From assembly GCA_028278645.1 (NCBI GenBank), contig JANQDZ010000059.1, forward strand, positions 1 through 56,206: a stretch of DNA of 56,206 bases. The letters are read 5' to 3'. Origin of the DNA: Longimicrobiales bacterium. GTDB taxonomy: Bacteria > Gemmatimonadota > Gemmatimonadetes > Longimicrobiales > Gaopeijiaceae. The notes below the pieces were generated by a model. It did not search any database and was not told the DNA's origin. It saw only the letters and a program-made list of their open reading frames with translations. Of the stretch, positions 2,684 through 52,406 are shown one piece after another. A program made the position numbers and the translations under genes. The first letter of the stretch is position 1; each line of letters opens with the position of its first letter.

Positions 2684-3775
2684 TTATCCTCCGTTCCCCC
2701 CGGCAGAGACCAAACGCTCCAGTAGACCCTCATACTCCTTCCATGAGACAGGCTTCTCAGGGGGGCCATACCAACCGGCGAAGACTTGATGGGCAACCAC
2801 CATCTCCATCTTTGGGAGGACGGTGAGGTACTGTCCGTATGCACCTCGGTACGTGAAGGCCCCAGCGAACGGTCCGTCGGTGGCGGGATCTTCCCAGGTC
2901 CACCAGTAGTAACCGAAGCCAACAAGTCCTTCCCTCAAGGACTCAGGGTGGAGTTGCCTCCGAGGAGTTCTGATTCTTGTGACCCGATCAACCCAACCGA
3001 CGGGAAGAACCTGTTGGCCTTCCCACTGACCATCCTGCAGCATTAGCTGGCCAATGCGAGCAACGTCCCGGGTGGAGAGATAGACCTCATACTTTGGGAA
3101 GCCGGATCTCGTGGGGTCTCCATCCTTCTTGTGTCTTTTCCATCTGAAGTCTTGGAAACCTATAGGTCCGCCAAGGTCTTCGTGCAAAGCTTGGTAGAAA
3201 CCCCTTCCGGTAAGGAGTTCGAATACGCCGCAGGCGGCGAGTGACCCCCACGAATGGAGAGAAAAACGGGTCCCCGGCGTCACCGACCCCCGTGGGGGAT
3301 GGTCCGGTGAGTCCCAAAGGAAGACGGATGGATGGTACACACCGGAACGCCCGCTCAACAAGTCCCCTACCGTGGCCGTCTTTTCAAGGGCCAACAGCCC
3401 CGCACGATCATCGATCCCCAATGACCCGATGGTTTGCCCGAGGTTGATGGATCCCTCGGAAACGGGCGTACCGAACAGCAGAGCGAGAATCGCGGTTCTG
3501 GCTTCCCCAAGGTACCCCCTGGCGGTGATGTCCCCATATTCGAAAAGGACCTTCCCGCCCACCAGGACAATGAGGCCGGTGGTGCCGAGAGTCTCCAGGA
3601 GGGCGCTTAGGTCCGCGAGGGTGGCTTCCTCGAATCCGATCTCAGTCGGGTGATGCCATCGGTCCAGACGGTCTCCTGGTAAAGGGTTAAGCGCAGGAAT
3701 ACCCTTGACCAGCGCTGACGAAACGAGCCCCGCGGCGAGAAGAGCAAAGAGCAAGGTGGGTTTCTTTGGTTTCAT
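2684..3775 (-). CDS. Beta-lactamase-fold protein with degenerate active site
   Basis: A 363-residue exported protein (N-terminal hydrophobic segment, residues 7-24) of the class C beta-lactamase / serine hydrolase family. ATVGDLLSGRSGVYHP (134-149), PGTRFSLHSW (167-176) and the RGAYGQY segment fit that family. The positions usually occupied by catalytic residues look changed. Where SVRKS (SxxK) is expected there is EARTA at residues 91-95. Where YxN is expected there is Leu173-His-Ser175. If the alignment holds, acylation chemistry is lost. The start has a GGAGGG site directly upstream. It is the last gene of a minus-strand set with an ADOP permease and a SUMF1-like protein, 61 bases from the permease. 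A binding or scaffolding role is inferred. Confidence 0.7.
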   Translation of the reverse strand: MKPKKPTLLFALLAAGLVSSALVKGIPALNPLPGDRLDRWHHPTEIGFEEATLADLSALLETLGTTGLIVLVGGKVLFEYGDITARGYLGEARTAILALLFGTPVSEGSINLGQTIGSLGIDDRAGLLALEKTATVGDLLSGRSGVYHPSVFLWDSPDHPPRGSVTPGTRFSLHSWGSLAACGVFELLTGRGFYQALHEDLGGPIGFQDFRWKRHKKDGDPTRSGFPKYEVYLSTRDVARIGQLMLQDGQWEGQQVLPVGWVDRVTRIRTPRRQLHPESLREGLVGFGYYWWTWEDPATDGPFAGAFTYRGAYGQYLTVLPKMEMVVAHQVFAGWYGPPEKPVSWKEYEGLLERLVSAGGNGG

Positions 3776-3836
3776 CTACCCTCCATCGCTAGTTAAACTA
3801 GGGTCCGTGAAATGAGCCACAGTCGCGGCTCCGGGT

Positions 3837-6275
3837 TCAGTTCTCCTTAAGAACCTGGACCGGATCCATTAGAATGGCTCGCCGGGCTGGTATGTTGGAT
3901 ACGACGGCACCGATCGTGAGAAAAAGGCCGGCTATCATCCCAAGTAGGGACGGATCGATGGGATCGGCGCCGTAGAGGAAGCTCCGGATCAGAGAACAGG
4001 CGACGACAGCCAACGGAATGCCCAGTCCGAGCCCGACGACCACCGGAATCAATCCAGACTTGATGATGGAAGCCCGGACCTTCGCGGGTGGTGCTCCCAG
4101 GGCTCCGCGGATGGCGTATTCCTTCCATCGCTGAGCCACTGAGATGGAGAGGCCCCCCACCAGCCCGACGGAGGCCAGGAACAATCCGATAAAGCCCAAT
4201 CCGCCGGCGAACGCAGCTGCAAACCGACGAGGGAGGAGATGGGCACCAATGAGTTGAGCATAGTGTGCGTTGATGGTAAGAGGGATATCAGCATCCAGCA
4301 CCCTCACGAACTCACCAACCTCTCGCTGGCTCAGGCCGCAGTCGTCAGTCGCCCTCAAGATGAGGGAAGCCGTCGGGTTGAAGTATTGGGCTCTGGGGAG
4401 GTAGACGGCAGCGAGGGGGGATTCACCAAGCGAAATGTACTTCCCGTTTTGGGCCACTCCGATGACCTCGAAAACCGAGTCCCCTTGACGGAGACTCTGG
4501 CCGATGACTCCCCCCCTGGGCCAGAGGATGCTGGCGACTGTTTGATTGACGATGGCCACCGGCGCGGAGTTCGGACCATCACCTGAAGTGAACTCACGTC
4601 CCTCCAGGATCCGGATTCCCAATGTCTCGAAGAACCCGGGGGACACGCCTAAAATCCCCGCTTGGACTCCACCGGACCTCTGAGTTGAAGCGAAACTCTC
4701 CGCCCGTTCAGGAGGTGAGACGAGGGGGAGGAAATCTGCGAGGGCAGCCGACGCGACCTCTGGATGGCGCCGACTCAAGTCCAGGAGTCGATCGAAGAAT
4801 ACCTTCCCCTCCTCCCCTCCGTATTCCTGGATTCCCAAGTCAATTGTGGCCACTTGAACTCCGGTTGGCACAAAGCCCAGGTCGATCGAGCTGGCTCTTT
4901 CCAAAGCCGTGGCCAGGGACCCGCTTCCGGTGAGGAGGACAACAGCACCTGCTACCTGGGTAGCGACCAGCAGTTTCCGGACCGTTGTCCCCATTCCCCT
5001 CTGGAGGCGTCTGTGTTTTAGAAAGGGATTATCCCCGCCGCGGATGAGAAGGAAACCCGGGCCCAGACCGACGATCAGACCCGAGAAGAGGGTCACCATC
5101 AGGGATAGTGCAAGGACTCTCAGATCCGGTGTGAAGTTCCCGATGAGAGGGATCCCTACAGGGAACTCCACCTTCCCCAGGGCCTGGGTCCCCAAAACCG
5201 CGAGACAAGTCCCACACAACCAGCTTAGAAAGAAAAGGAGGATACTCTCAATGAGGATGTGGAAAAAAACCCGCCGCCTGCTTCCTCCCACCGCCATCCG
5301 TATCGCCATTTCGCCAGCCCTACCGAGTGTTCTGGAAAGCAGGAATCCAGCCGTGTTTGAGCAACTGACGAGGAGGATGGCCGCTGAGAGGGCGAGCAAA
5401 AAACCCAAATAGATGGATACGGGCCCTCTGAATTCTTCGAAACTTCGCTCCTGAGGTTCGACGATGAGGACCTCTGAAGCCCAGTCAACCGGGTTGGTTT
5501 GTCGTAGGGTCGCGACCGTCCGTCCGGCCGCCGCCCGGACCGTTTCAAGCGATGCTCCGTGGGATAGACGACCGATCGCGAGCACTTCGGGCTCCTTCGA
5601 CCCGCTGCTGGCGGTCGGCCCTTGTTCGTCGAGGCGGATCCAGAGGCTGATTCTGTAAAGCGGGAGATGGCCGTTAAATCCTTCTTCGGCGACCCCAATG
5701 ATCGTGAAACTCCTTCGGTTTAAGGAGATCGATCTACCAAGGACTGAGCGGTCCCCGCGGAAACGGGTCCTCCAGAGCCGATGGCTCAGGACCACGGACC
5801 CGGACGGGAGAGCGCCTTGGCTGAAACCGGGATCGAACAGGAGTCCAGCCGCCGGCTTTGTGCCCAGGACAGAGAAGTACTGGTCAGACACGGCCATGGC
5901 AGCGACGATCTCGGGCTTCCCCCCGGAGGAAGCTGATAGGCCTACCTTCGAAAGCGTTGCTGCGGCGATTGCCTCCAACCCGGTGTCCGTTCCCTGAAGA
6001 GCAGAAAAGGCCTCCAGCGGCATTGGACGGCCAGACCTCCCCGATCGGTCACCCACCCTCAGAGCCACTAGGTCTTTCGGTTTCTGGACCCCGGGAAGGG
6101 GGCGGACCAGGACGGAATCGGCAATACTCACTGCCGCCGTCGCTGACCCAATTCCAATCCCGAGGGTCACAACGCTGGTGGCCACAAAAACAGGGGACCG
6201 GCTCCAGGATCTAAGGACCGACGAAATGTCTTGAAGAATCGCAACAACCAAAACGGGCCTATCCAATCTGACCAA
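3837..6275 (-). CDS. ADOP/MacB-type ABC permease protein
   Basis: An 812-residue inner-membrane protein with the duplicated FtsX/MacB arrangement. It has an N-terminal transmembrane helix (residues ~28-50, ...TLGIGIGSATAAVSI), a periplasmic MacB_PCD-like domain and three helices near 285-420. A second helix-plus-domain unit follows, and a final three-helix bundle ends in PARRAILMDPVQVLKEN. This is the acidobacterial duplicated orphan permease layout. The start is a TTG at 6275 with a strong GGGGGAGAA Shine-Dalgarno. Unlike the two other ADOPs here it lacks the short cytoplasmic N-terminal domain. No ATP-binding subunit is encoded nearby. The gene lies 42 bases behind the SUMF1-like gene, so it is likely co-transcribed. 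The cargo is unknown. Confidence 0.85.
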   Translation of the reverse strand: MVRLDRPVLVVAILQDISSVLRSWSRSPVFVATSVVTLGIGIGSATAAVSIADSVLVRPLPGVQKPKDLVALRVGDRSGRSGRPMPLEAFSALQGTDTGLEAIAAATLSKVGLSASSGGKPEIVAAMAVSDQYFSVLGTKPAAGLLFDPGFSQGALPSGSVVLSHRLWRTRFRGDRSVLGRSISLNRRSFTIIGVAEEGFNGHLPLYRISLWIRLDEQGPTASSGSKEPEVLAIGRLSHGASLETVRAAAGRTVATLRQTNPVDWASEVLIVEPQERSFEEFRGPVSIYLGFLLALSAAILLVSCSNTAGFLLSRTLGRAGEMAIRMAVGGSRRRVFFHILIESILLFFLSWLCGTCLAVLGTQALGKVEFPVGIPLIGNFTPDLRVLALSLMVTLFSGLIVGLGPGFLLIRGGDNPFLKHRRLQRGMGTTVRKLLVATQVAGAVVLLTGSGSLATALERASSIDLGFVPTGVQVATIDLGIQEYGGEEGKVFFDRLLDLSRRHPEVASAALADFLPLVSPPERAESFASTQRSGGVQAGILGVSPGFFETLGIRILEGREFTSGDGPNSAPVAIVNQTVASILWPRGGVIGQSLRQGDSVFEVIGVAQNGKYISLGESPLAAVYLPRAQYFNPTASLILRATDDCGLSQREVGEFVRVLDADIPLTINAHYAQLIGAHLLPRRFAAAFAGGLGFIGLFLASVGLVGGLSISVAQRWKEYAIRGALGAPPAKVRASIIKSGLIPVVVGLGLGIPLAVVACSLIRSFLYGADPIDPSLLGMIAGLFLTIGAVVSNIPARRAILMDPVQVLKEN

Positions 6276-6317
6276 GTTTAATTCTCCCCCGGTCCAGCCT
6301 CACGCCGGGCCCCGGGT

Positions 6318-7418
6318 TCAGGCCCCCGGGTGTCCGCTCGGATTTGATCTCGCCAACCTGAAACCACTTGCATTGCACCGGTTGTTGGCTTGCCAGGAGA
6401 GCCGCTTCGTAGCTCGCATCTCCTCGGCGTCCCCACCCCAACGCCCTCCACGAACCACACGGCCTCTTCCATCGGACTGGATCGGGTTGACTCTTTCCAG
6501 TTCTGGGTATGGAGAAAAGGTATCGTGTACCCACTCCCAGGCGTTTCCGGCCATGTCGAACAAGCCCAAGGCGTTGGCGGGAAACGCACCAACGGGAGTC
6601 GGTCCCGCCCGTTCCGGCCCGGGTATGAGGTAAGAATACTCCCCCGATGCTGCGTCGAAGGATGCGGTCCTAGCGCTTGCCGTTTCTAGTCCGTTCCCGA
6701 AGCGGACCTCATTCCCCCCCTCGCGGGCGGAAAACTCCCATTCAGCTTCCGTCGGGAGTCGGTAACCCATCACCGAGGTGATGTCGGAGGTCGGCCTCCC
6801 AGTGGAGTCAAGCAGGGCACCGGCCCCGACGTCGTACGCTTCCGGTAGGCCTTCGATTCTACTCAGCCAGTTCACGTAGTGTGCGGCATCTTCCCAAGAA
6901 AGGCAGACTGCCGGATGGAGGTCTTCCAGATCGAAACCAGGGGCCTTCCATGAGAGATTCTCGTCGAACCCAAAACGCCCCGCCGACCGATCCCACCAGT
7001 TGCAGCCGCCAAAGAGGAGCGTCTCATCCACTAGGGCCCGCCGAGCTTGGAAGGAAAGGCCCTCCCCCCTGGCGGCCAGTTGAAGGAGGCTGTCTTGGGC
7101 CTGCCGGTTCACGGGCAATTCGGCGGAGGTTGTATACCCGGTCTCTGTGACGAACCGGCGGAACTGCGAAACGGTCACCTCATGCTTGGCGATCCAAAAG
7201 CCGGTCAACTGGACCGAATGCGTCGGTTGCTCCTCCTCGCCCCCCTCTCCCTTGGTATCTCCCATCAGGAAAGATCCGCCGTTGACGTACACCAACTCTG
7301 TTCCGTCCGCGGCAAGCTGGCCCTGGCCGAATGTCTGACCAGGAAGGCAGGTCATCCAACAGACCAACCAAAGCAGGGTGGATATGAGGTCTGAAGGGAT
7401 CGTTCGGCACGCCGTCAT
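6318..7418 (-). CDS. Exported SUMF1 (formylglycine-generating enzyme-like) protein
   Basis: 366 residues with an N-terminal signal segment (to about residue 32, ...GQTFGQG). A SUMF1/FGE-sulfatase fold follows: VYVNGGSFLMGD near 44-55, FWIAKHEVTVSQF near 73-85, GYRLPTEAEWEFSAR near 218-232, GLFDMAGNAWEWVHD near 287-301, and RVVRGGRWGG near 321. Copper-dependent formylglycine enzymes need two Cys shortly after that last RGGSW motif. Here the stretch reads WGGDAEEMRATKR, with none. The protein is therefore probably not a sulfatase activator but one of the many binding or non-canonical SUMF1 proteins. A GGAGGAG site precedes the start. It is first gene after the operator-bearing promoter and likely leads a transcript with the permease and the lactamase-fold gene. 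Confidence 0.8.
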   Translation of the reverse strand: MTACRTIPSDLISTLLWLVCWMTCLPGQTFGQGQLAADGTELVYVNGGSFLMGDTKGEGGEEEQPTHSVQLTGFWIAKHEVTVSQFRRFVTETGYTTSAELPVNRQAQDSLLQLAARGEGLSFQARRALVDETLLFGGCNWWDRSAGRFGFDENLSWKAPGFDLEDLHPAVCLSWEDAAHYVNWLSRIEGLPEAYDVGAGALLDSTGRPTSDITSVMGYRLPTEAEWEFSAREGGNEVRFGNGLETASARTASFDAASGEYSYLIPGPERAGPTPVGAFPANALGLFDMAGNAWEWVHDTFSPYPELERVNPIQSDGRGRVVRGGRWGGDAEEMRATKRLSWQANNRCNASGFRLARSNPSGHPGA

Positions 7419-7482
7419 TTCGTCTCCTCCAAGTCGGGTCGCTGTGGGTCTTGTCTAGTTCTAGGCTAAGCGTAGATCTTCG

Positions 7483-7513
7483 ATATATAGACACTCTATA
7501 TATAAGTTGTCAA
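7483..7513 (-). promoter_or_regulatory. Sigma-70-like promoter overlaid by a perfect inverted repeat
   Basis: Read on the minus strand: -35 TTGACA (7513-7508), an 18-base spacer, and -10 TATATA (7489-7484), placing transcription start near 7477, about 60 bases before the SUMF1-like start codon. An exact 8-base inverted repeat with a 5-base spacer, ATATATAG / CTATATAT at 7483-7490 and 7496-7503, covers the -10 box and much of the spacer. Its position suits a repressor, and the PadR gene just upstream is the obvious candidate. PadR binding itself is inferred. Confidence 0.7.
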
Positions 7514-7556
7514 TAGAATCCTGCGGGCTCGGTGCTGGTTGCCAGGCCGGTTGACC

Positions 7557-7916
7557 TTAGGGGCGCGAATCGGTGGGTTCAGGCCCTGTGTTTTCCAAGA
7601 GTCCTGCCGCGATTCCCTGCCGGACCAATGTGGCCCAGGAACTCAACTCTTCCCGGGCGAGGATTCGGCCTTTTGGTGTTATCGAGAAGAAACGACGAGG
7701 TCGGTTGTCCGAGGGGACCCATTGGGGCGGCTCCTCTATTTCTTTGATCAATCCAGCGCCCGTCAGGGCTCTGAGGCAGGGGTATACCGTTCCCAACGAG
7801 GGCTGGATCCGATCTTCCGTTCTCTCCTTGATCACTCGAAGGATCCCATATCCGTGGAGGGGGCCATCCACCAAAGCCAGAAGGATCAGAAGGGAAACTC
7901 GGGTCATCGGGCCCAT
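7557..7916 (-). CDS. PadR-family transcriptional regulator
   Basis: 119 residues, mostly the PadR winged helix: LLILLALVDGPLHGYGIL (residues 9-26), the recognition part SLGTVYPCLRALTGAGLI (40-57), and the wing ending in RRFFSITPKGR. The protein is short, lacking the long dimerising C-terminal helix bundle of classical PadR, as is usual for regulators paired with ADOP permeases. It is transcribed in the same direction as the SUMF1-like/ADOP/lactamase-fold set, 138 bases upstream of it. The gap holds a promoter covered by a perfect palindrome, so local repression is likely. Start at 7916 or 7907 (both ATG) cannot be settled. Confidence 0.88.
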   Translation of the reverse strand: MGPMTRVSLLILLALVDGPLHGYGILRVIKERTEDRIQPSLGTVYPCLRALTGAGLIKEIEEPPQWVPSDNRPRRFFSITPKGRILAREELSSWATLVRQGIAAGLLENTGPEPTDSRP

Positions 7917-8433: not shown

Positions 8434-8769
8434 ATGTCACCGAGAGATTATCCGGGGGAATTCGAACAGGCGGTTTTGCTCACGGTAGTCCGGTTGAAAG
8501 ACGCCGCCTACGGTATGGCTATCCTGCAGGAGATCGTCGACCGAACCGGCCGCGAGGTCGGAATCGGGTCAGTGTATTCGGCTTTGGATCGGATGGAGGC
8601 GAAGGGATTCCTCTCCTCCACCTTGGGGGACCCTACACCGGAGAGGGGAGGAAAAGCCAAACGGTACTACCGCATTGAAGAGGCGGGCGTCGCGGCCCTC
8701 CTCAAGGCCCGTTCGATGTATTCCGCCCTCTGGGAGGACCTGACATTGGGTGGGGAGGGGATGGAATGA
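8434..8769 (+). CDS. PadR-family transcriptional regulator
   Basis: 111 residues of PadR winged helix: FEQAVLLTVVRLKDAAYGMA (residues 9-28), VGIGSVYSALDRMEAKGFL (42-60), and the wing KAKRYYRIEEAGVAAL. This is the short ADOP-associated type, with the GSVYSALDRME core typical of PadR proteins placed ahead of large permeases. AGAGGACG upstream of the ATG serves as Shine-Dalgarno. The stop overlaps the start of the ADOP gene by four bases (ATGA), so the two are translationally coupled. It probably represses its own promoter at 8363-8391; the ligand is unknown. Confidence 0.9.
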   Translation: MSPRDYPGEFEQAVLLTVVRLKDAAYGMAILQEIVDRTGREVGIGSVYSALDRMEAKGFLSSTLGDPTPERGGKAKRYYRIEEAGVAALLKARSMYSALWEDLTLGGEGME

Positions 8770-11474
8770 AACCAGCGAAGGGAGGTGATGGGAAGAGATC
8801 TGTCCCCCTCCCTCCTCCTCGCTGGGCGGAGCATCTCCTCCGCCTCCTCACTCCCGCTCGATATCGGGACGAGATCTTGGGGGATTTGCGGGAGGGGTTT
8901 GGCGTCCGCAGGGAAACAGACGGGCGAGGCAATGCCGTTCGTTGGTATCTCCTTCAGATTCTGATGTCCCTTGGCCCTTGCCTCGCTTTTCGAATCAGGG
9001 CTCCACGAAGCTCCCGCCGGGACCTGACACAAACGGGGAACACCATGATCGGTATCTTTGGGCAGGACTTCCGGTATGCAGCCAAGTCGTTTGGGAGGCG
9101 GAGGACGTTTTTGGGATTGGCAGCTTCAACGCTCGGACTCGGGATCGGACTCTCGACCGCCATGTATAGCGTGGTTCACGCAGTCTTGGGGACGGCCCCG
9201 GACTACCAGGACCCAGAGAGGGTGGTGTCGATCTGGCAACGTGTTGAAGGAAGGGCCGGACAAACGAGGACCGGAGAAACCAGGCTGCAATTCCCGCAGT
9301 ACGTCGCACTTCGTGATAATTGTCCGGCCTTCAGCGGTGTGGCTCTTTACGCCGCCGATTGGGGAGAGAGCGCACTGGCCGGTCCTGACGGGCCCGTTCC
9401 GGTCCGGGTGGGCGCCGCCACGGCCTCCCTTCTTCCGACCCTCGGGATTTCGCCTCCTCTCGGTCGTTGGTTCCTGCCAGAGGAAGAAGGTGACCGGGCG
9501 GGGCCTTTATCTCAAGTCGTCGTCCTGAGCCATAGCACCTGGGCAGTCCGTTTCGGGGGGGATCCAGAGCTTCTCGGACGACCGGTCGTACTCAACGGCA
9601 TCTCGTACACGGTTGTTGGGGTCCTCCCTCCGGGATTCCGGATGCAGTGGTTGAGCAATTCCGTCAATCGAGCTGCTGATCCGGGTCCGAGGGATTTTTG
9701 GGTACCCATCGGGGCTCCCGGCTGGAATGAAAGACCAGGATCGACCATGTGGGAGGCCGTAGCTCGTCTGGCTGAGGGCGTCACAATCGAACAAGCACGA
9801 GTTGAGGCTGGACCGATTTTAGCTGCGGTTTGGGACCGACCGGCCGAGGCGGTGGTGATCCCCCGCACCACGGACGAAGCGAGAGGGATCCGGTCGCCGA
9901 TCCTCCTCCTCTTTGGTGCAAGCGGCATCCTGCTCTTGATCGCATGCGGGAACGTAGCCTTGCTGTCTTTCGCAGAGACCGCGAACAGAGGCGAGGAACT
10001 CGGGATCAAGACGGCAATCGGGGCGGGCCCCGGCCGGATCCTCCGTCAGGCTCTCGCAGAAAGCCTGATTCTTGGCGCCTGTGGGAGCGCCATCGGAGCA
10101 CTCGTCGCGATGTGGGCCACGCCCGTGCTGGTCTCCATGGCACCAGCGATTCCCAGACTCGATGACGTTGGAATCGACGGTTGGGTCCTCGGATTCGCTA
10201 CGGGCCTCGGAGTCCTGACCGGCCTGGTTTCCGGCGTGGGGCCAGCCCTGCTGCATTCGCGGGACTCGGCCTCTCCCTTATTTTTGGCCCGTGGTTGGAA
10301 GACGCCTTCTCCAAGCCAGAAGATTGGGAAAGCAGTACTCTCCGCGGAAGTCGCGCTGACATTCATACTGTTGGTTGGAAGTGGTCTATTTGTCGAGAGC
10401 GTGCGCCGGGTCGGGGAAGTAAGCCCAGGGTTCGACGCGGAGGACCTCGTAGGTCTGAAAGTGGTTCTGCCAAGGGGGCAGTACCCATACAAAGACCAGG
10501 CGGCGACGGTTTTCATGGAAAGGGTCCTGTCTGAAATCAGGGCCGCTCCGGGCGTCGGTTCGGCTTCGGCGGTGAACGAACTCCCTTTCCCCGGCCGAGT
10601 CTCAAGATGGGCCGGCCGATCGGATCCGAATGATAGTTCTTCTCTCATGCCCAAAGTTTATCATGTCGCGCCCGGCTACTTCGACCTCATGGGGATTCCA
10701 ATGGTCGAGGGCCGGGATTTCTCCTCCGATGACAACCTTGACTCACCCCCGGTCGCGGTGGTTGGCGAGTCTCTCGCGCGGGCTTTGTGGGGAAACGCGT
10801 CACCTATAGGCAGGCTTCTTTACTATCCGATCGAGGCGGTTCGGGTAGTGGGAGTCGTCCGAGACGTCCGCCAGGTCGTCCTGGGTGAAGCGCCCCCTCT
10901 GACTTTTTATGTTCCGCATGCCCAGCACAACCGCCCAGAACTCACCTTTGTCGCCCGCACTCACGTGGAGGCCTCGGGTATCCTGCCCGCACTTCGAAGC
11001 GCAGTGTGGGCGGTGGACGGTGGGATCGTAGTGAGTGAGGGAGGTAGCCTGGAGGACGCGGTGGCCCGCTCCACTGCCGGGCTGCAATTCAGGACGGTCC
11101 TTATGGTGATCTTCGCCGCCCTGGCGGCCTTGCTGGCTTCGGTGGGCATCACGGGGTTGACTGCGAGGAGCGTGGGTATGCGCTCCAGGGAGCTGGCGAT
11201 CCGCCAGGCCCTCGGAGCCGAGGACCGGCCGTTGGTCGCCGGGATGGTAGGGGAGATCCTTCTTATCGCGGGCATCGGCATCGGCCTGGGGGTGCCAGGA
11301 GCCCTGATCTTCGGTTCTGCAATGGCATCGCTTCTCGTGGGTGTAGACACCTTCGACCTGACCGTGATGGGGATCGTGGTCTCATTGACCTTCTTCGGTT
11401 GCGCCTTGGCGAGTTTCATACCAGCCAGGAGGATCGTGAGGCTGGACACGATGAGCGTACTGAAGCGGGAGTAG
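8766..11474 (+). CDS. ADOP-type ABC permease with N-terminal ADOP domain
   Basis: 902 residues. Residues ~18-48 (PRWAEHLLRLLTPARYRDEI, LGDLREGF) form the cytoplasmic N-terminal ADOP domain. A first transmembrane helix follows at about 118-138 (LAASTLGLGIGLSTAMYSVV), then a MacB_PCD-like periplasmic domain, helices near 375-490, a second helix/periplasmic unit from about 515, and a C-terminal bundle ending in PARRIVRLDTMSVLKRE. The gene is translationally coupled to its PadR regulator. No ATPase gene is adjacent. ADOP proteins are usually suspected of macrolide or lipoprotein export or mechanotransmission by analogy with MacB; nothing here identifies the substrate. Confidence 0.88.
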   Translation: MKPAKGGDGKRSVPLPPPRWAEHLLRLLTPARYRDEILGDLREGFGVRRETDGRGNAVRWYLLQILMSLGPCLAFRIRAPRSSRRDLTQTGNTMIGIFGQDFRYAAKSFGRRRTFLGLAASTLGLGIGLSTAMYSVVHAVLGTAPDYQDPERVVSIWQRVEGRAGQTRTGETRLQFPQYVALRDNCPAFSGVALYAADWGESALAGPDGPVPVRVGAATASLLPTLGISPPLGRWFLPEEEGDRAGPLSQVVVLSHSTWAVRFGGDPELLGRPVVLNGISYTVVGVLPPGFRMQWLSNSVNRAADPGPRDFWVPIGAPGWNERPGSTMWEAVARLAEGVTIEQARVEAGPILAAVWDRPAEAVVIPRTTDEARGIRSPILLLFGASGILLLIACGNVALLSFAETANRGEELGIKTAIGAGPGRILRQALAESLILGACGSAIGALVAMWATPVLVSMAPAIPRLDDVGIDGWVLGFATGLGVLTGLVSGVGPALLHSRDSASPLFLARGWKTPSPSQKIGKAVLSAEVALTFILLVGSGLFVESVRRVGEVSPGFDAEDLVGLKVVLPRGQYPYKDQAATVFMERVLSEIRAAPGVGSASAVNELPFPGRVSRWAGRSDPNDSSSLMPKVYHVAPGYFDLMGIPMVEGRDFSSDDNLDSPPVAVVGESLARALWGNASPIGRLLYYPIEAVRVVGVVRDVRQVVLGEAPPLTFYVPHAQHNRPELTFVARTHVEASGILPALRSAVWAVDGGIVVSEGGSLEDAVARSTAGLQFRTVLMVIFAALAALLASVGITGLTARSVGMRSRELAIRQALGAEDRPLVAGMVGEILLIAGIGIGLGVPGALIFGSAMASLLVGVDTFDLTVMGIVVSLTFFGCALASFIPARRIVRLDTMSVLKRE

Positions 11475-12161: not shown

Positions 12162-12491
12162 GTGACCAATCGAGCGGCCCTGGGTGAATTCGAACACCTT
12201 GTTCTTGCGACGGCGCTGCGGGTCAAGGATGCCTACGGTGCCGAGCTGATGCGCGAGCTAGAGGAGCGTACAGGAAGACAGGTGCAGGGCGGATCACTCT
12301 ACGTGACGATCGACAGGCTGGAACGAAAGGGATTCGTTGTCACACGACTTGAAGACCCCAATGGTAGGCGAGCTGGACGACCAAAGCGGTATGTCGAAGT
12401 GACCGCAGCGGGCGTTCGGGCGCTGGCAGAGCAGCGTGACGCCCTGCTGCGGGCCTGGCAAGATATAGAACAAACGCTGGACCGAGCATGA
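12162..12491 (+). CDS. PadR-family transcriptional regulator
   Basis: 109 residues: FEHLVLATALRVKDAYGAEL (residues 8-27), QGGSLYVTIDRLERKGFV (41-58) and GRPKRYVEVTAAGVRAL (71-87) define the short PadR winged helix. The start is GTG at 12162 with AAAGGAG eight bases upstream. The stop overlaps the ADOP gene start (ATGA). Base usage changes here compared with the preceding pair: third positions favour GCG, CGC and GTC. That, with flanking debris, suggests the pair arrived as a unit. It likely controls its own operon; no clear -35/-10 pair was found upstream. Confidence 0.9.
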   Translation: MTNRAALGEFEHLVLATALRVKDAYGAELMRELEERTGRQVQGGSLYVTIDRLERKGFVVTRLEDPNGRRAGRPKRYVEVTAAGVRALAEQRDALLRAWQDIEQTLDRA

Positions 12492-15235
12492 GCACCCGGC
12501 CCCCAGCGTTCCTGCGCCGCCTATTAGAGTCGATCCTTCCGCCCGGACCGATACGCGAAGGCCTCGTTGGCGACTTGGATGAACTCTATGCAGAGCGAAC
12601 GGCCCAGGGCCGTCGCCTGACGGGCGCCTGGTACTTGCGGCAAGTTGCCTCCGCAGCGGTACGATACCGCGGCGGTCGCAGGGGCAACGCCCGCAAGGGT
12701 GGGAGCTGGTTCGACGGCCTGTTTTTCGACCTGAGGGTCGGAGGCAGGATGTTAGTGAAATTTCCCGGACTCACGATTGTCGGCGGTATCTCGATGGCGT
12801 TCGCAATCTGTGCCGGCATTGTCATCTTCGAGCTCGTCACGGCTTTTGGATACCCCACGCTTCCGGTGCCCGCGGGTGAGCGCGTTGTCCAGATCCGGAG
12901 TTGGGACCTTGTCGCGGGTCGGCCGGAGGAGCGGGTCCTATACGACTTCGTCGTATGGCGCGATGAACTCAGGTCGGTCATCGAGCTCGGCGCGTGGCGT
13001 GACGTCACACGGACGATGATCGATGCCGGGGGTGAGGGGCGCGCTGTCCACGCAGCGGAAATCACGGCCTCAGGTTTCCGAGTCGCGGGAGCTGCACCAC
13101 TCTTGGGCCGCGTCCTCGCTTTGACTGACGAACGGCCAGGTGCGGCGCCCGTAGCTGTCCTCGGCTACGAACTATGGCGCAGTCGGTTCGGCGGCGATCC
13201 AGAGGTCGTGGGTCGGAGCGTTGAGCTTGGGGGTCAACGGACAACAATCGTGGGAGTCATGGACGATGGCTTTGGCTTCCCGGTCTCCCACCAGCTCTGG
13301 ATGCCGCTCCGGGTCCCGACCGGGAACCAGGAGCCGCGTTCGGGCCCCCCGATCAGGGTATTCGGCGAACTCGCCCCCGGCGCTACCCTCGAGACCGCCC
13401 AGGCGGAACTGACCGCGCTCGGGGGGCGAGCAGCGGTCAACTCCCCTGCCACGCATGAGTTCTTACAACCGCGCGTATTGTCTTATTTGAAAGGGTTCTA
13501 CGAGCCGTCAGCGACGGATCTGGTCCTGGCGTACTCGATCTTCTTCTTCGCGCTCATGCTGGTCGTTGTCATCTGCGGGAATGTCGCCCTCCTTCTGTTC
13601 GCGCGAGCGGCGACGCGCGAGAGCGAACTCGTAGTGCGGAGTGCCCTCGGAGCGGGTCGCGGCCGAATCGTGGCCCAGATGTTCGCTGAAGCTCTCGTGC
13701 TCGGTGGCGTGGCCGCGGTTGTCGGGCTGCTGGCCGCGCGCTCAGTTCTCGCGATGTGGGGCGTCGATTTCCTGGAGGGTAACATGGGCCGGCTCCCTTT
13801 CTGGATCGACGTCGGCCTTTCACCCGCGACGGTCCTTGTCGCCATCGGGCTCGCCGTCCTCGGGTCGGCGGTCGCAGGGATCTTGCCCGGTATCACGGTG
13901 ACGCGTGGGATGGGATCTCGCTTGAGACGTGCGGCGGCCGGGGCGGGCGGGGTGCAGTTCGGTGGGATCTGGAGCGCGGTGATTGTCGTACAGGTGGCGG
14001 TCACGGTGGCGTTCCCGTCGATTGCCTACGTGCAGTTCTGGCAAGTACGCCACACCCAGACGTTCGAGGCCGGATTCGCCGCAGAGGAGTACTTGACGGT
14101 ACGTATCGAGCAGGATGCTCCAATCCTTTCGGGGTCGGAGGCCGATTCGGCTCGTCAAGTCCCGGCGGTTTCGCTTGCTCTCACTATCGACGAGCTGCGT
14201 CGGCGCCTGGAGGCTGAGCCCGGAGTAGGCGGAGTGACATATATCGATCGCCTGCCGCGCACCGGCCACCGCGACTACGAAATCGAACTGTCTGATGCTC
14301 CGCTCGTGACGGCTCAGGCCCTCGGTGGCTCGAGCCCGCTTCCGCCACTTCGGGAAGCGGATGTCGCCCTCATCGATCCAACTTATTTCCATGTACTGGG
14401 GAAGGATGTGGTCGCCGGCCGCGCGTTCAACGGGAACGACCTTGCTCCTGGGACAAGGGTCGTGATCGTCGACCATGGCTTTGTGGACCAGGTGCTTCAG
14501 GGACGAAATGCCCTCGGCCAACAAGTCCGTTTCGTGGATGATGTCCCGTTTGAAGCCGCTGAGGGCCCTGGCTCGTGGTACGAGGTGGTGGGTGTCGTGG
14601 AGGAACTCGGGATGGGTGCCCCCTGGAAGCGGGGACGCGCCGCCGGGCTCTATCTCCCCGCTACTCCCGACCGACTTGAAACGCTTCACATGATGGTACA
14701 CGTGCGCGGCGATCCGATGGCTCTCGTACCGCGGGTGCGGGAGGTCGCAGCCGCGGTGGACGCGACACTTGGATTGACGGATTTCCAGCGCGCAGATGAC
14801 ATCCTGAAGGTGTGGGGCAGCGCGTTGTGGTTGGTAGTTGCGAGCTTGTTCGCCGCGATCGCACTGCTGCTGTCGCTGGCCGGGATCTATGCGGTACTGT
14901 CTTTCACCGTGACCCGACGAACGCGTGAGGTCGGGGTGCGAGTGGCACTAGGCGCGGGGCGGGCGCGGGTCTTCCGGGAGATCTTTCGTCGCCCCCTTTC
15001 CTGGGTCGGAATTGGCGTGCTCTCCGGCAGTCTACTCATTGCAGTCCTAGCTGCCTTGGCGCGCGGCACGAACTTTTCCTGGGCCGATAGTCTCCCCAGT
15101 CGGTTCTCGCTCATGCACCTCGCGACGCTCATGGGATACGCGACCGTGATGCTGGGGATCTGTCTCCTCGCTTGCGTGGTGCCGACACGCCGAGCACTTG
15201 GCGTCGAGCCGACTGAGGCGCTGGGGACCGACTAG
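12488..15235 (+). CDS. ADOP-type ABC permease with N-terminal ADOP domain
   Basis: 915 residues. The N-terminus (PAFLRRLLESILPPGPIREG, LVGDLDELY) is the cytoplasmic ADOP domain. A helix at about 92-118 (LTIVGGISMAFAICAGIVIF) leads into a periplasmic MacB_PCD-like domain. Helices near 350-470 follow, then a second unit from ~495 (VIVVQVAVTVAFPSIAYV), a periplasmic domain, and a C-terminal bundle with VGVRVALGAGRARVF and final PTRRALGVEPTEAL. It is translationally coupled to the PadR gene. No nucleotide-binding subunit is present. Its 3' end lies about 50 bases before a comM relic, and its codon preferences differ from those of the neighbouring ADOPs, so lateral acquisition is plausible. Confidence 0.88.
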   Translation: MSTRPPAFLRRLLESILPPGPIREGLVGDLDELYAERTAQGRRLTGAWYLRQVASAAVRYRGGRRGNARKGGSWFDGLFFDLRVGGRMLVKFPGLTIVGGISMAFAICAGIVIFELVTAFGYPTLPVPAGERVVQIRSWDLVAGRPEERVLYDFVVWRDELRSVIELGAWRDVTRTMIDAGGEGRAVHAAEITASGFRVAGAAPLLGRVLALTDERPGAAPVAVLGYELWRSRFGGDPEVVGRSVELGGQRTTIVGVMDDGFGFPVSHQLWMPLRVPTGNQEPRSGPPIRVFGELAPGATLETAQAELTALGGRAAVNSPATHEFLQPRVLSYLKGFYEPSATDLVLAYSIFFFALMLVVVICGNVALLLFARAATRESELVVRSALGAGRGRIVAQMFAEALVLGGVAAVVGLLAARSVLAMWGVDFLEGNMGRLPFWIDVGLSPATVLVAIGLAVLGSAVAGILPGITVTRGMGSRLRRAAAGAGGVQFGGIWSAVIVVQVAVTVAFPSIAYVQFWQVRHTQTFEAGFAAEEYLTVRIEQDAPILSGSEADSARQVPAVSLALTIDELRRRLEAEPGVGGVTYIDRLPRTGHRDYEIELSDAPLVTAQALGGSSPLPPLREADVALIDPTYFHVLGKDVVAGRAFNGNDLAPGTRVVIVDHGFVDQVLQGRNALGQQVRFVDDVPFEAAEGPGSWYEVVGVVEELGMGAPWKRGRAAGLYLPATPDRLETLHMMVHVRGDPMALVPRVREVAAAVDATLGLTDFQRADDILKVWGSALWLVVASLFAAIALLLSLAGIYAVLSFTVTRRTREVGVRVALGAGRARVFREIFRRPLSWVGIGVLSGSLLIAVLAALARGTNFSWADSLPSRFSLMHLATLMGYATVMLGICLLACVVPTRRALGVEPTEALGTD

Positions 15236-23846: not shown

Positions 23847-24248
23847 ATGGTTGCTGAGGAGCTCCAGACGATTCAGACCGTTGGCCGGCGGAAGACCGCC
23901 GTAGCCCGGGTCCTCCTTCGCCCCGGTGAGGGAGAGTGGACCATCAACGGTCGGCCCATGGCCGAATACTTCCCCAGGAAAGCCCACCAGATCCGGGTGG
24001 AAGAGCCCCTTCAGGTGACAGAGTTGGGGGGGCGTTTCGACATCCAGATTCGCGTACGAGGTGGAGGCCTGACCGGCCAAGCCGATGCGATCCGTATGGG
24101 TGTATCGAGAGCCCTGGTGGCCTTCGACGAAGAACAGCGGCCCGCCCTGCGGTCCAAGGGACTGCTGACCCGTGACCCCCGCAAAGTTGAGCGGAAGAAG
24201 CCCGGTCGCCCCAAGGCCCGGAAGCGCTTCCAGTTCAGCAAGCGGTAA
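23847..24248 (+). CDS. rpsI: 30S ribosomal protein S9
   Basis: 133 residues. TVGRRKTAVARVLLRPGEG near the N-terminus, VRGGGLTGQADAIRMGVSRA in the middle and the basic tail RKKPGRPKARKRFQFSKR match S9. The final Lys-Arg reaches the P-site tRNA. It follows rplM and precedes rpsB by 19 bases, in one operon. Confidence 0.97.
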   Translation: MVAEELQTIQTVGRRKTAVARVLLRPGEGEWTINGRPMAEYFPRKAHQIRVEEPLQVTELGGRFDIQIRVRGGGLTGQADAIRMGVSRALVAFDEEQRPALRSKGLLTRDPRKVERKKPGRPKARKRFQFSKR

Positions 24249-24267
24249 TCTCTACTCCGGCTCCGAT

Positions 24268-25350
24268 ATGCAGCAGGTTGAACTAAACGAATTGCTCGAG
24301 GCAGGCGTCCACTTCGGACACCAGACCCGCCGTTGGAACCCGAAGATGAAGGGTTTCATCTTCACAGAACGAAACGGTATCCACATCATCGACCTCCGGA
24401 AGACCCTGGACCGGCTCAATCGAGCCCAACAGGCGGTTCGGGAGGTGGTGCTGAAAGGGGAGCGGGTCCTCTTCGTCTGCACCAAGCGCCAGCTTCGGAG
24501 CATCATCGAGCAGGAAGCGGAGCGGTCCGGCTCCTTCTATGTGACCGAACGGTGGCTGGGCGGCATGCTCACCAACTTCCAGACGATCCGGAATCAGATC
24601 CGGCGGCTGAAGGAGTTGGAGCGGGGTCAGGAAGAGAACGCGTTCGAGTTCTACACCAAGAAAGAGCGCCTCCTCCTGGACCGGGAGCGGATGAAGCTCG
24701 ACAAGTACTTCAGCGGTGTGAAGGACATGACCCGGGTTCCCGGGGCCGTCTTTGTGGTGGACGCCCGCAGGGAGTCCATTGCGGTCAAAGAGGCGCACCG
24801 CCTCGGGATCCCGGTGATCGCCATCACGGACACCAACGCTGATCCGGACCTTATCGATTACCCCATCCCGGGTAATGACGACGCGATGCGTGCCGTCGGC
24901 CTGATTACGAAGGCCATCGGGGACGCTGTTGAATCGGCCCGTCAGGAGGTGCCTGAAGGCGAGCGTCGGCGTGTGGAAGAGATGGAAGCTACCACGTACT
25001 CCACAGAGACCGGCGAGACCACCGAAGTCGAGAAAGTGCCGGCCCGTCGCCGTCCCAGAAGGAAGCGGCGCCCCAGGCCGGAAGTCATTGCCCAGCATAG
25101 AAAGACGGGCCAGGCGGACGCTGAGGTAGCCGGGGACGAAACCCCTGAGGAAAGCGGGACCGAGGAGGCTCCGACCGAAGAGGCTCCGACCGAGGCGGCG
25201 CCGGAGGCCGAGGCCGCTGACACAGCGGGTGCCGAGGTCGAGGCTAAGGACGCCGAGGTAGAGGCAGCCACGGACGTAACTGAGCCCGAAAGCTCGGATG
25301 CGGAGGCTTCGGCCGAGGACGTGGCCGAGGCGGAGGGGGAAAAGGAGTAA
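24268..25350 (+). CDS. rpsB: 30S ribosomal protein S2 with long acidic tail
   Basis: 360 residues. The S2 core runs from MQQVELNELLEAGVHFGHQT to about residue 232, with RNGIHIIDLRKT, FYVTERWLGGMLTNFQT and VIAITDTNADPDLIDYPIPG. E. coli S2 is 241 residues. Here a further ~120 residues follow: first a basic patch ARRRPRRKRRPRP, then a low-complexity Glu/Ala/Thr tail with short repeats such as EEAPTEEAPTEAAP. The ATG at 24268 is chosen because S2 similarity begins there; the longer in-frame start overlaps rpsI out of register. Acidic tails also occur on NusA and IF2 in this window. Confidence 0.95.
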   Translation: MQQVELNELLEAGVHFGHQTRRWNPKMKGFIFTERNGIHIIDLRKTLDRLNRAQQAVREVVLKGERVLFVCTKRQLRSIIEQEAERSGSFYVTERWLGGMLTNFQTIRNQIRRLKELERGQEENAFEFYTKKERLLLDRERMKLDKYFSGVKDMTRVPGAVFVVDARRESIAVKEAHRLGIPVIAITDTNADPDLIDYPIPGNDDAMRAVGLITKAIGDAVESARQEVPEGERRRVEEMEATTYSTETGETTEVEKVPARRRPRRKRRPRPEVIAQHRKTGQADAEVAGDETPEESGTEEAPTEEAPTEAAPEAEAADTAGAEVEAKDAEVEAATDVTEPESSDAEASAEDVAEAEGEKE

Positions 25351-25512
25351 TCCCCCTGGCCTTCTCCCAAGGGAGAGGGCTGATCCCCGGACATACCCGG
25401 GGACCGGAGGCGGCAGCAGGAGGGTGTCGAGCGAGGGGTTTTACCCGCCGGCTCCCCATCTTGGCTCCCGCCTCTTTTTCATAGCGAGTGTTCAAGGAAC
25501 AAACGAGAAGGA

Positions 25513-26115
25513 ATGATGACTATTTCCGCCCAAGACGTAAAAGTTCTCCGGGACCGGACCGGTGCCGGGATGATGGATTGCAAGAAGGCCCTGCAGGAAA
25601 CCGACGGCGACATGGAAGCCGCTATCGACTTCCTACGCGCCAAAGGAGCCGCGAAGGCGGCGAAACGGGCCGAGAAATCAGCCAACGAAGGCACCATCGG
25701 TAGCTACCTTCACTTCGGTGGGAAGATCGGCGTGATGGTGGAGCTGAACTGCGAAACCGATTTCGTAGCAAAAACCGATGACTTCACCGGCTTGGCCAAA
25801 GACCTGGCCATGCATGTTGCGGCTGCTGCTCCCTTGTCCGTGAGCCCTGACGACATTGATCTCCAGGTTGTTGAGCGGGAGCGAGGCGTTTTCCTCGAGC
25901 AGGTCAAGAATGAAGGGAAACCCGAGCATATCGCCGAAAAGATCGTCGAAGGGAAGCTTCGGAAGTTCTTCGAGGAGAACTCCCTGTTGAAGCAGCCTTT
26001 CGTGAAGGACCCTCAGAAGTCGGTCGAACAGCTTATCACCGAGGTTTCCGCAAAAACCGGTGAAAGGATCGAAGTCGCGCGGTTCACTAGACTCCAGGTG
26101 GGAGGGGAGGGCTGA
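25513..26115 (+). CDS. tsf: Elongation factor Ts
   Basis: 200 residues, the short form with a single core unit as in many non-enterobacteria. The N-terminal UBA-like domain has [20 protein letters not shown] (9-28), the contact motif is [15 protein letters not shown], and the C-terminal helix has [13 protein letters not shown]-Ts exchanges GDP for GTP on EF-Tu. A gap of 162 bases separates it from rpsB, and a strong terminator follows, so it closes this operon. ATG at 25513 or 25516. Confidence 0.96.
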
Positions 26116-26163
26116 CCCTGCATCCCCGGCCCCTCACGGGAGTTGGTGTTCCTTTGAACCGAA

Positions 26164-26200
26164 AGGCCCGCTGCCACCTCGCGCAGCGGGCCTTTTTTTT
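26164..26200 (+). terminator. Rho-independent terminator after tsf
   Basis: A perfect 11-base stem AGGCCCGCTGC / GCAGCGGGCCT (26164-26174 and 26183-26193), an 8-base loop and a run of eight T (26193-26200). This is the clearest intrinsic terminator in the window and ends the rplM-rpsI-rpsB-tsf unit ahead of pyrH. Confidence 0.93.
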
Positions 26201-26236
26201 GCTACCTTCCAAGTGGATCCGAAACCGAGGAGCGGT

Positions 26237-26959
26237 ATGAGCGGTCAGATGGAAGTGAAATACCCGAAGGTACTTCTGAAACTGTCCGGGGAGGCACTGG
26301 CCGGTGGTCAGGGATTCGGCATCGACCCTCCGGTGGTTGAACGGCTCACCGAAGAGGTTCTGGCCGTCCATGGTATGGGCGTAGCCCTCGGGATGGTGAT
26401 CGGGGGTGGGAACATCGTCAGGGGCGCCGCTGCAAGCCAGCAGGGGATGGATCGGGTTTCAGCAGACTACATGGGTATGTTGGCCACCATCATCAATGCC
26501 CTGGCGATCCAGGACTTGCTGGAAAAGAAGGGGATCGATACCCGGGTGATGACCGCAATCAGGATGGACGAACTCGCCGAACCTTACATCAGGCGTCGGG
26601 CAGTCCGGCATCTGGAAAAGGGAAGGGTTGTGATCTTCGCCGGCGGGACCGGGAACCCCTACTTCTCGACGGACACCGCGGCCGCTCTGCGAGCTATAGA
26701 GATCGAGGCCGATGTGGTGATCAAGGCCACCAAAGTAAAAGGCGTCTACACGGCGGATCCGGTCACCGACCCGTCAGCTGAATTCATCCCGAACATCAGC
26801 TTCCGGGAAGTCGTGGCCCAAGAGCTGGGGGTCATGGACGCCCCGGCCGTTTCCCTTTGTAGAGAAAACGGGTTACCTATCATCGTCCTGGATCTCGAGG
26901 ACCAAGGTTCGGTTTCCGCAGCGATCCGCGGAGAGCAGGTAGGGACACTCGTATCCTGA
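26237..26959 (+). CDS. pyrH: Uridylate kinase
   Basis: 240 residues of the amino-acid-kinase-fold UMP kinase: [11 protein letters not shown] (residues 11-21), [44 protein letters not shown] and [15 protein letters not shown]. It phosphorylates UMP to UDP and is allosterically tuned by GTP and UTP in this family. The ATG at 26237, with GGAGCGG upstream, is preferred; the frame is open earlier but runs through the terminator. It opens the pyrH-frr-uppS-cdsA-dxr-rseP set. Confidence 0.97.
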
Positions 26960-27003
26960 CAACCCTCACAGGTCAGCAAGACACAACCTTCGGAGGTGAC
27001 CCC

Positions 27004-27555
27004 ATGCCCACGCTGAAAGAGGCCGAACAGGCCATGAAAGCCGCGGTGGAAGCGACTCGGAGGGAGTTCGCCACCGTTCGGACTGGGAAGGCCACTCCTG
27101 CCCTCCTCGATACCGTAAAGGTCGAGGCCTACGGGACTCAGATGCCTCTCAATCAGGTCGCCACGGTAAACACGCCCGAGGCCACCCTGCTGGTGGTCCA
27201 GCCATTTGACCAAACTCTGATCGGCGCTATTGAAAAGGCCATCCTGGTGGCGGATTTGGGGTTAAACCCGGCCAATGACGGGAGCGTGATCAGGGTCCCC
27301 GTGCCGCCTCTGAACGAGGAGCGGAGAAAAGAGTACGTAAAGCTTCTGCACAAGCTTGCCGAAGAGGGGAAGATCTCCATACGGCATGCCAGGCACAAAG
27401 CCCGGGATACGATCCAGGAGCTCATAAAGGCCCACGAGATGGGGGAGGACGACGGACACCGTCAGATGGACGAGGTGGAGAAGCTCACACACGAGCACTC
27501 CGACGCGATCGACGATCTCCTGAAAAAGAAGGAGGAGGAGGTCATGTCCATCTAG
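27004..27555 (+). CDS. frr: Ribosome recycling factor
   Basis: 183 residues, standard length. EFATVRTGKATPALLDTVKV (residues ~20-39), YGTQMPLNQVATV, LNEERRKEYVKLLHKLAEEG and RHARHKARDTIQELI are family hallmarks. RRF splits post-termination ribosomes together with EF-G. A near-ideal GGAGGTGA site precedes the ATG. It follows pyrH by 44 bases, the conserved order. Confidence 0.97.
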   Translation: MPTLKEAEQAMKAAVEATRREFATVRTGKATPALLDTVKVEAYGTQMPLNQVATVNTPEATLLVVQPFDQTLIGAIEKAILVADLGLNPANDGSVIRVPVPPLNEERRKEYVKLLHKLAEEGKISIRHARHKARDTIQELIKAHEMGEDDGHRQMDEVEKLTHEHSDAIDDLLKKKEEEVMSI

Positions 27556-27624
27556 CTCGTCGGCGCCTCCGACCTGTCGTCGGCGGCTAACCGGCAAAGC
27601 CAGAGGACGACGCCGTCTCTTCCC

Positions 27625-28368
27625 ATGACTCCTGATTTCCTCAAGCAGGTCCGGGCGGGGGGGAATATCCCCAATCACGTCGCCGTAATCATGGACGGGA
27701 ATGGCCGATGGGCCCGGTCCAGAGGTTTGCCTCGGCATGCCGGCCATAGGGAAGGGATGAAAGCCGTTCGGGAGGCGCTGGCGGGATCAATCGAGGTGGG
27801 GATCGAGGTCCTCACCCTTTTTGCGTTTTCCACCGAGAACTGGAACCGCCCCCCCCGAGAGATCTCAGCCCTCATGGGGCTCCTCGAGCTCTACGCCAAG
27901 AAAGAGAAGGCCGACCTCATCAACCAAGGGGTCCAGGTCCATGTCCTTGGGGAGTTGGACCGCCTTTCTGGCCGCACCCGTAGGGCAGTTGACGGGATCA
28001 TGGAGGCCACCTCCGGTGGGGAAAACCTCCGCCTGAACCTCATGATCTCCTACTCGGGCCGGAAGGAGATTCTGGAGGCGGTCCGCAACCTCGCCCGGGA
28101 CGTGGCCAAGGGTGAGCTCGAACCCTCGGATATCGACGACGAGGTCCTCCAAGGGGCGCTTTTCACTCGCGGGCTTCCGGACCCGGACCTCCTGGTAAGA
28201 ACCTCAGGGGAATTCAGGATCAGCAACTTCATGCTCTGGCAGTTGGCCTACACCGAAATCCACATCACGCCGGTGCTGTGGCCTGATTTCACCAGACAGG
28301 ACCTGTTCGCTGCGGTATTGGACTACCAACAGAGGGACCGACGATTCGGACGGGTGAAAACGCCGTGA
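27625..28368 (+). CDS. uppS: Undecaprenyl diphosphate synthase
   Basis: 247 residues of the cis-prenyltransferase family. HVAVIMDGNGRWARSRGLPR carries the catalytic Asp and P-loop-like phosphate site; ENWNRPPREISALM and RTSGEFRISNFMLWQLAYTE are the substrate-binding motifs. It condenses isopentenyl diphosphate units into the C55 carrier for peptidoglycan and other glycans. It sits with cdsA and dxr, which supply phospholipid and isoprenoid precursors. The Shine-Dalgarno is weak; the ATG is fixed by similarity. Confidence 0.96.
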   Translation: MTPDFLKQVRAGGNIPNHVAVIMDGNGRWARSRGLPRHAGHREGMKAVREALAGSIEVGIEVLTLFAFSTENWNRPPREISALMGLLELYAKKEKADLINQGVQVHVLGELDRLSGRTRRAVDGIMEATSGGENLRLNLMISYSGRKEILEAVRNLARDVAKGELEPSDIDDEVLQGALFTRGLPDPDLLVRTSGEFRISNFMLWQLAYTEIHITPVLWPDFTRQDLFAAVLDYQQRDRRFGRVKTP

Positions 28369-28395
28369 CCGCCCTTGCCGGTGAGGCGTCCTAGG

Positions 28396-29277
28396 ATGCA
28401 GAAAGGAGACTTCCTTCGGCGCCTCGCGGTGGCGGCCATCGGGATCCCGCTGGCCCTGTTCGTCTTGGTCCGCGGCGGATGGCTATTGGCGGTTTTTGTG
28501 GCCCTTTTGGCCGGTATCGCCGCTCGGGAGATGAACGCACTGGCGGCGGCGCGAGGGATCCGGGTCTTTGGTTGGATGGGAATCGTGGGGACCGCCGCCA
28601 TGGTTCTCCTGGCCGGGTGGACCCGAGCTTTCACTCTCTGGGCACCCTGGGCCATTGGCCTTCTTCTCACCGTGTTCTTCTTGGCATCGGCCGCCGCGCT
28701 CAAACGCCGGCGACCGGAGGACCGTCCTCTCTTGGCGTCGTCCCTTACAGTCGTGGGGGTCCTGTACTGGGGAGGGTGTTTCTCATTCGCGATCTTCCTG
28801 CAAAACTTCCCGGTGGGCCAGGAGTGGCCCCAGCCGGACCTTCCCTATCGCGGTGCGGTTTTGTTGGCTTTCCCGCTGGCAATTACCTGGACCGCCGACA
28901 CTGCGGCCTACCTCATCGGCAGCTTGTTCGGAAAGCGGAAGATGATGCCCGACGTAAGCCCGGGGAAGACGGTAGAAGGGGGAGTGGCGGGCCTCTCCGT
29001 CGCTTTCCTGGTCGGGGCTTTTATGGGTTGGGTCTTCCTGCGAATCCACCCCGATCCGGTTCGGGCAGCCCTCCTTGGCGGGTTCTTGGGCCTGATCATG
29101 GGTTTCATCACACAGCTCGGGGACCTCATCGAATCCCTGTTCAAAAGGGAAGCTGGGGTGAAGGATTCAGGCTCCCTACTCCCCGGCCACGGGGGCATTC
29201 TCGACCGCTTTGACGCTCTGATCTTCACACTCCCCGTTACCTACGGCTTGATGTACCTGGTGGGGCTGATCCTATGA
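28396..29277 (+). CDS. cdsA: Phosphatidate cytidylyltransferase
   Basis: 293 residues with seven or eight membrane helices and the C-terminal CDP-diglyceride synthase signature KDSGSLLPGHGGILDRFD (residues ~256-273). ADTAAYLIGSLFGKRKM and SPGKTVEGG are further family motifs. The enzyme makes CDP-diacylglycerol, the precursor of all phospholipids. The ATG at 28396 is preferred to a TTG seven codons earlier. Its stop overlaps the dxr start (ATGA). Confidence 0.96.
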   Translation: MQKGDFLRRLAVAAIGIPLALFVLVRGGWLLAVFVALLAGIAAREMNALAAARGIRVFGWMGIVGTAAMVLLAGWTRAFTLWAPWAIGLLLTVFFLASAAALKRRRPEDRPLLASSLTVVGVLYWGGCFSFAIFLQNFPVGQEWPQPDLPYRGAVLLAFPLAITWTADTAAYLIGSLFGKRKMMPDVSPGKTVEGGVAGLSVAFLVGAFMGWVFLRIHPDPVRAALLGGFLGLIMGFITQLGDLIESLFKREAGVKDSGSLLPGHGGILDRFDALIFTLPVTYGLMYLVGLIL

Positions 29278-30434: not shown

Positions 30435-30445
30435 ATCAAGAAGTC

Positions 30446-47623: not shown

Positions 47624-47687
47624 GGCGACCGGCCGAATACCCGGGGCAGAAGGCCCCTGGAATTCGGGCAGGACGAAGAGGACGAGA

Positions 47688-49539: not shown

Positions 49540-49583
49540 AACGTACGGGCGGACGGGTCGCCCAGCGGAGGTAGTTCAAGCGC

Positions 49584-52340: not shown

Positions 52341-52406
52341 GTAGAGGTTTTTGGGTTATCCGAAAAGGAGAACCCGGCCTGCCAAGAGCGGAGCCGGTTC
52401 TCGGAG

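Follow-up and report, generated by a model that had tools for sequence, protein, structure and literature searches.

A PadR-associated gene cluster encoding a SUMF1-like protein, an ADOP-type permease and a candidate pseudo-hydrolase of the beta-lactamase fold in a Longimicrobiales bacterium

Gene content and layout of the cluster

The window analysed here, i.e. the whole stretch of DNA under study, spans an entire contig of 56,206 bases from a Longimicrobiales bacterium. A first-pass annotation had described four same-strand genes lying together in it, and all four reading frames were confirmed to be open, full length and on the minus strand. In the order of transcription they encode a PadR regulator, a SUMF1-like protein, an ADOP permease and a beta-lactamase-like protein, with gaps of 138 bp between the PadR and SUMF1-like genes, 42 bp between the SUMF1-like and ADOP genes, and 61 bp between the ADOP and beta-lactamase-like genes. 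The features are as follows:

7557..7916, minus strand: PadR-family transcriptional regulator, 119 amino acids (PF03551, 51.4 bits)
7484..7513, minus strand: putative promoter-like sequence TTGACA-N18-TATATA, read from the sequence
7483..7503, no strand: candidate PadR operator, a perfect 9+3+9 palindrome within the 138 bp that separate padR from the SUMF1-like gene
6318..7418, minus strand: SUMF1-like protein (FGE-sulfatase domain), probably exported, 366 amino acids (PF03781, 203 bits)
3837..6275, minus strand: ADOP-type permease, TTG start, 812 amino acids (MacB_PCD and FtsX; TIGR03434, 577 bits, cut-off 622)
2684..3775, minus strand: beta-lactamase-fold candidate pseudo-hydrolase, probably exported, 363 amino acids (PF00144, 40.2 bits)

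The beta-lactamase, MacB_PCD/FtsX, FGE-sulfatase and PadR matches all exceeded the Pfam gathering cut-offs (27 bits for PF00144, 23.3 bits for PF03781 and 27 bits for PF03551), which bore out the families that had been named. The hydrophobic N-termini of the SUMF1-like and beta-lactamase-fold proteins, as judged by eye, suggested that both are probably exported. Immediately downstream of the cluster, a PD40 beta-propeller lipoprotein-like protein is encoded at 1179-2126 on the minus strand, and at 1-467 there is a second beta-lactamase-fold gene, of which only the C-terminal part is present because the gene is truncated by the contig start. Ordinary housekeeping genes were found at 24172-31807 (ribosomal protein S2, an amino-acid-kinase-fold kinase, undecaprenyl diphosphate synthase, CTP_transf_1, DXP reductoisomerase and an M50 protease) and at 47493-54960 (NusA, IF-2, TruB and riboflavin kinase/FAD synthetase).

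ATPase-less ADOPs beside PadR regulators are a known and abundant arrangement. The permease of the cluster matched the TIGR03434 profile from end to end (residues 13-811 of 812 against positions 1-802 of 803), at a score under the curated cut-off. Two matched stretches each of MacB_PCD and FtsX were found and no ATPase in the permease itself, which is the domain set of an ADOP; no ABC ATPase was found among the larger window ORFs scanned either, in agreement with the first-pass description of a permease lacking an ATPase. No HAAS or permease-prefix domain was matched at its N-terminus, where the protein starts at profile position 1. The neighbouring ADOP at 8766-11474 scored 671 bits, over the cut-off, and carries permease prefix domain 2. 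The PadR protein, a member of PF03551, scored 57.6 bits against TIGR03433 (padR_acidobact), under the cut-off of 101.8 bits. Three PadR plus ADOP units are grouped in the window, at 7916-3837 (minus), 8434-11474 (plus) and 12162-15235 (plus); in the 4.9-Mb home genome, at least 67 ADOPs passed the curated cut-off.

The pairing of PadR with MacB/FtsX permeases is well established in envelope signalling (PMC11237479). The PadR (TIGR03433)/ADOP (TIGR03434) pairs and the HAAS-PadR-like wHTH systems with FtsX/MacB_PCD permeases (PMC11237479) combine, as here, a PadR-type regulator with an ATPase-less, duplicated MacB_PCD-FtsX permease. However, the unit in the window contains two additional genes for exported proteins, and its palindrome follows padR and precedes the SUMF1-like gene. 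The permease also scores under the ADOP cut-off and, in contrast to the HAAS-PadR-FtsX/MacB systems (PMC11237479), gave no match to a HAAS or permease-prefix domain; of the HAAS-PadR dyad only the PadR member was present.

The SUMF1-like gene is preceded by a GGAGGAG ribosome site, and its product contains the full PF03781 domain, as do FGE, PvdO, EgtB and GldK, yet scores far under the GldK, PvdO and EgtB equivalog cut-offs. The active-site cysteine pair of FGE lies in the motif SYMC...C. Unlike FGE, the SUMF1-like protein has no such pair: in the alignment it reads RWGGDAEEM where FGE has SYMC....C, as had been stated. The pair was also absent at this place from most aligned SUMF1-like proteins of the home genome and the phylum, so its absence is the ordinary state of these proteins and unremarkable. 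In a search of approximately 300 genomes of the phylum, only one close relative was found (57% identity), in genome G235 of another family; it adjoins a PF00756 esterase, with no beta-lactamase-like gene beside it, and the nearest ADOP and PadR relatives are several kb away. A plasmid search with the SUMF1-like protein returned distant SUMF1 homologues only, with less than 32% identity among the matches listed.

Active site of the beta-lactamase-fold protein

Beta-lactamase-like homologues were found in 42 of 118 related genomes at E <= 1e-20, and in 82 of 395 genomes from a wider draw of the phylum at E <= 1e-60. In the window protein the catalytic Ser and Lys of SxxK are replaced by Glu91 and Thr94, and the Tyr and Asn of YxN by Leu173 and Ser175. 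In the alignment with this protein, the same columns contained Ser, Lys, Tyr and Asn, each in 55 of 55 homologues. This invariance rules out misalignment and indicates that the catalytic loss is real, as had been proposed from the residues themselves. All four catalytic residues are retained in a paralogue on contig C39 of the home genome, and neither SxxK nor YxN was found at any other place in the window protein. The loss is thus private to the window copy, being found in none of the homologues aligned.

The changes were not confined to these four positions. Among 80 near-invariant columns, 26 were altered, comprising 12 of the 15 in two active-site segments versus 14 of the 65 elsewhere (Fisher p = 4e-5, to be read as indicative only, because the segments were set around known motifs after the list of changes had been seen). 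Outside the active site, 51 of the 65 near-invariant columns were retained, and the scaffold motifs RSG, ARxGQLML, WW and GxxGQ were kept. By phmmer, the protein matched 8rlj (PIB-1) with an E value of 5.5e-16 and 4gb7 with one of 1.6e-10. The AlphaFold models of the two exported proteins were too low in confidence (pLDDT of 54 and 31) to serve as an independent check on structure. A Foldseek search with the low-confidence model of the beta-lactamase-fold protein gave beta-lactamase/PBP-fold hydrolases as top matches (E down to 1e-8, TM <= 0.3); these matches may be taken only to repeat the family assignment.

Compared with the class C-like serine hydrolases of PF00144 (6-aminohexanoate-dimer hydrolase, PIB-1 and Lsa45 type), the protein shares the Pfam family and the scaffold motifs, but its active-site Ser, Lys, Tyr and Asn are all replaced. 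It belongs to the PF00144 fold and lacks the SxxK and YxN by which an active enzyme of this family is recognized. These comparisons support the reading that the protein is without conventional serine-hydrolase chemistry and mark it as a genuine candidate for a pseudoenzyme. The first-pass annotation had counted two 'enzymes' with missing chemistry in the cluster; this held for the hydrolase, which lost its catalytic set, but not as a distinguishing feature of the SUMF1-like protein, given how common the absence of its cysteine pair is.

Palindrome between padR and the SUMF1-like gene

The perfect palindrome at 7483-7503 reads ATATATAGA-CAC-TCTATATAT. It overlaps the promoter-like sequence TTGACA-N18-TATATA, which reads towards the SUMF1-like gene and was missed by the consensus promoter scan because that scan requires T at the last -10 position. 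The palindrome together with the overlapping promoter-like sequence is a new observation at this locus. In shuffles of the window the number of such palindromes expected by chance was 0. Over the whole 4.9-Mb genome, exact copies were found in the window and at C67:44844 only, and the reversed control pattern gave no matches.

The copy at C67:44844 (L112:6845-6865) lies between a padR gene and a divergently oriented gene that matches DUF5916, ∼40 bp from the padR start, and the flank CGnAGATCTAnG is common to both exact sites. A copy with 3 mismatches on contig C30 is located ∼34 bp before a padR frame, the product of which shares 61% identity with the C67 PadR. Another copy with 3 mismatches, on contig C86, was considered as the neighbour of an intact padR and rejected, as reading of the sequence revealed only degenerate padR/ADOP remnants adjoining it (L137:3588-3998); these remnants suggest turnover of PadR-ADOP units. 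Behind the padR genes of C67 and C30 there are a small membrane protein, HAAS-like by eye, and short putative ExbB/MotA-like proteins.

Since the palindrome is rare and its two exact copies in the genome are each beside a padR, it is a good candidate for a PadR operator. Its location before the SUMF1-like, ADOP and beta-lactamase-like genes accords with the PadR control that the first-pass annotation had assumed. At C67 and C30 the palindrome is ahead of padR, but in the window it comes after padR. Because the window PadR and the C67 PadR are only 33% identical, the protein that binds the palindrome may be the C67 PadR and not the window PadR.

Linkage in relatives and interpretation of the cluster

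The nearest relatives of each of the four genes were found in unrelated neighbourhoods, and a phylum-wide search of approximately 300 genomes gave no relative with the same gene set. In approximately 20 neighbourhoods, no SUMF1-like relative was found near the beta-lactamase homologues. A different PadR-ADOP pair is beside the homologue on a short contig (L078), and an ADOP fragment lies several kb from the homologue at two further loci (L005 and L084). The nearest ADOP relatives, with 40% and 39% identity, are in genomes G249 and G235, respectively, and no beta-lactamase or SUMF1 relative was observed within ∼8 kb of either; in G235, the ADOP relative and the SUMF1 relative are megabases apart. 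No paper was found in the literature on a set of SUMF1-like, ADOP, beta-lactamase-like and PadR genes.

In the home genome, 39 matches to PF00144 and only 4 to PF03781 were counted. With that many PF00144 matches and so many ADOPs, chance alone should place an ADOP beside a beta-lactamase-like gene, and the number of PF00144-ADOP pairs was indeed close to the uniform expectation, with 2 observed versus 2.4 expected within 500 bp, 3 versus 3.0 within 1 kb, and 7 versus 5.2 within 3 kb. The adjacency of ADOP and beta-lactamase-like genes in the home genome is thus at chance level. SxxK was retained in the four ADOP-near PF00144 genes that were checked there.

We favour, at about even confidence, a lineage-specific, PadR-controlled SUMF1-ADOP-pseudohydrolase operon that serves a non-catalytic envelope function. 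The PadR encoded upstream would most likely act as a repressor by binding the palindrome at 7483-7503, which overlaps the spacer and the -10 region of the putative promoter. Upon its release, the exported SUMF1-like protein, the ATPase-less MacB/FtsX-type permease and the exported beta-lactamase-fold protein would be produced, presumably from a single transcript. In this operon a serine hydrolase would have been converted to a non-catalytic protein, which may be in physical contact with the permease. Because the scaffold is kept while the catalytic residues are lost, this protein most likely binds a ligand or a partner. It counts against the operon that the same set is found in no relative, so that a joint function has no support from conservation, and also that ADOP/beta-lactamase adjacency is at chance level, that the palindrome may belong to the C67 PadR, and that it follows padR here but precedes it at C67 and C30.

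Alternatively, the cluster could be a chance assembly, in which two unrelated genes for exported proteins drifted into an ordinary PadR-ADOP unit and share its promoter with no joint function. The linkage is seen in none of the nearest relatives, the home genome is saturated with ADOPs, and the PF00144-ADOP proximity equals the uniform expectation. Nevertheless, the close spacing of the three genes on one strand (gaps of 42 and 61 bp) after one candidate operator/promoter argues against it, and both outer proteins look exported, which is consistent with the permease; we regard chance assembly as rather unlikely. The first-pass annotation had envisaged an envelope module that would recur together with its residue losses. 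The parts of such a module are present and co-oriented, but a second linked example was absent from the neighbourhoods examined and the beta-lactamase losses occurred in no homologue. The homologous loci showed no consistent linkage, the very outcome that the annotation had named as evidence against itself, and in the genomes searched the recurrent module is largely refuted and appears highly improbable.

The residue losses could also mean that the beta-lactamase-like gene has recently become a pseudogene, with the active site as the first part to go, and is now disappearing. That the losses are private to the window copy would fit such decay, as would the 26 altered near-invariant columns and a long terminal branch (1.07, the second longest among 56). 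However, the reading frame has 363 open codons and a GGAGG ribosome site, the root-to-tip distance is ordinary (1.84 versus a median of 1.68), and the concentration of losses at the catalytic motifs, with most near-invariant columns elsewhere kept, is unlike random decay. No close orthologue for gauging selection was found among the genomes searched. Decay is considered unlikely on this evidence. A rewired hydrolase, in which Glu91, Thr94, Ser175 or another residue supports new chemistry in the old pocket, would fit the remodelling of the entire pocket beyond a single residue, but no SxxK or YxN is available elsewhere in the protein, no precedent was found in the literature, and the confidence of the AlphaFold model was too low for use; such a conversion seems very improbable.

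The favoured operon is a single example from one genome. As neither the same loss nor the same gene set was found in any searched relative, the cluster looks less like a new conserved system than like a local variant of the common regulator-plus-permease arrangement. A more specific and doubtful version of the operon is that the pseudo-hydrolase, as a non-catalytic receptor for a ligand, performs gating or sensing for the ATPase-less ADOP, with the SUMF1-like protein as an exported partner and under PadR control. The function of ADOPs was unstated in the papers found, despite the dozens of copies in the home genome, and an operon tying an ADOP to a protein that keeps its scaffold without the usual catalysis would give a handle on ADOP ligands.
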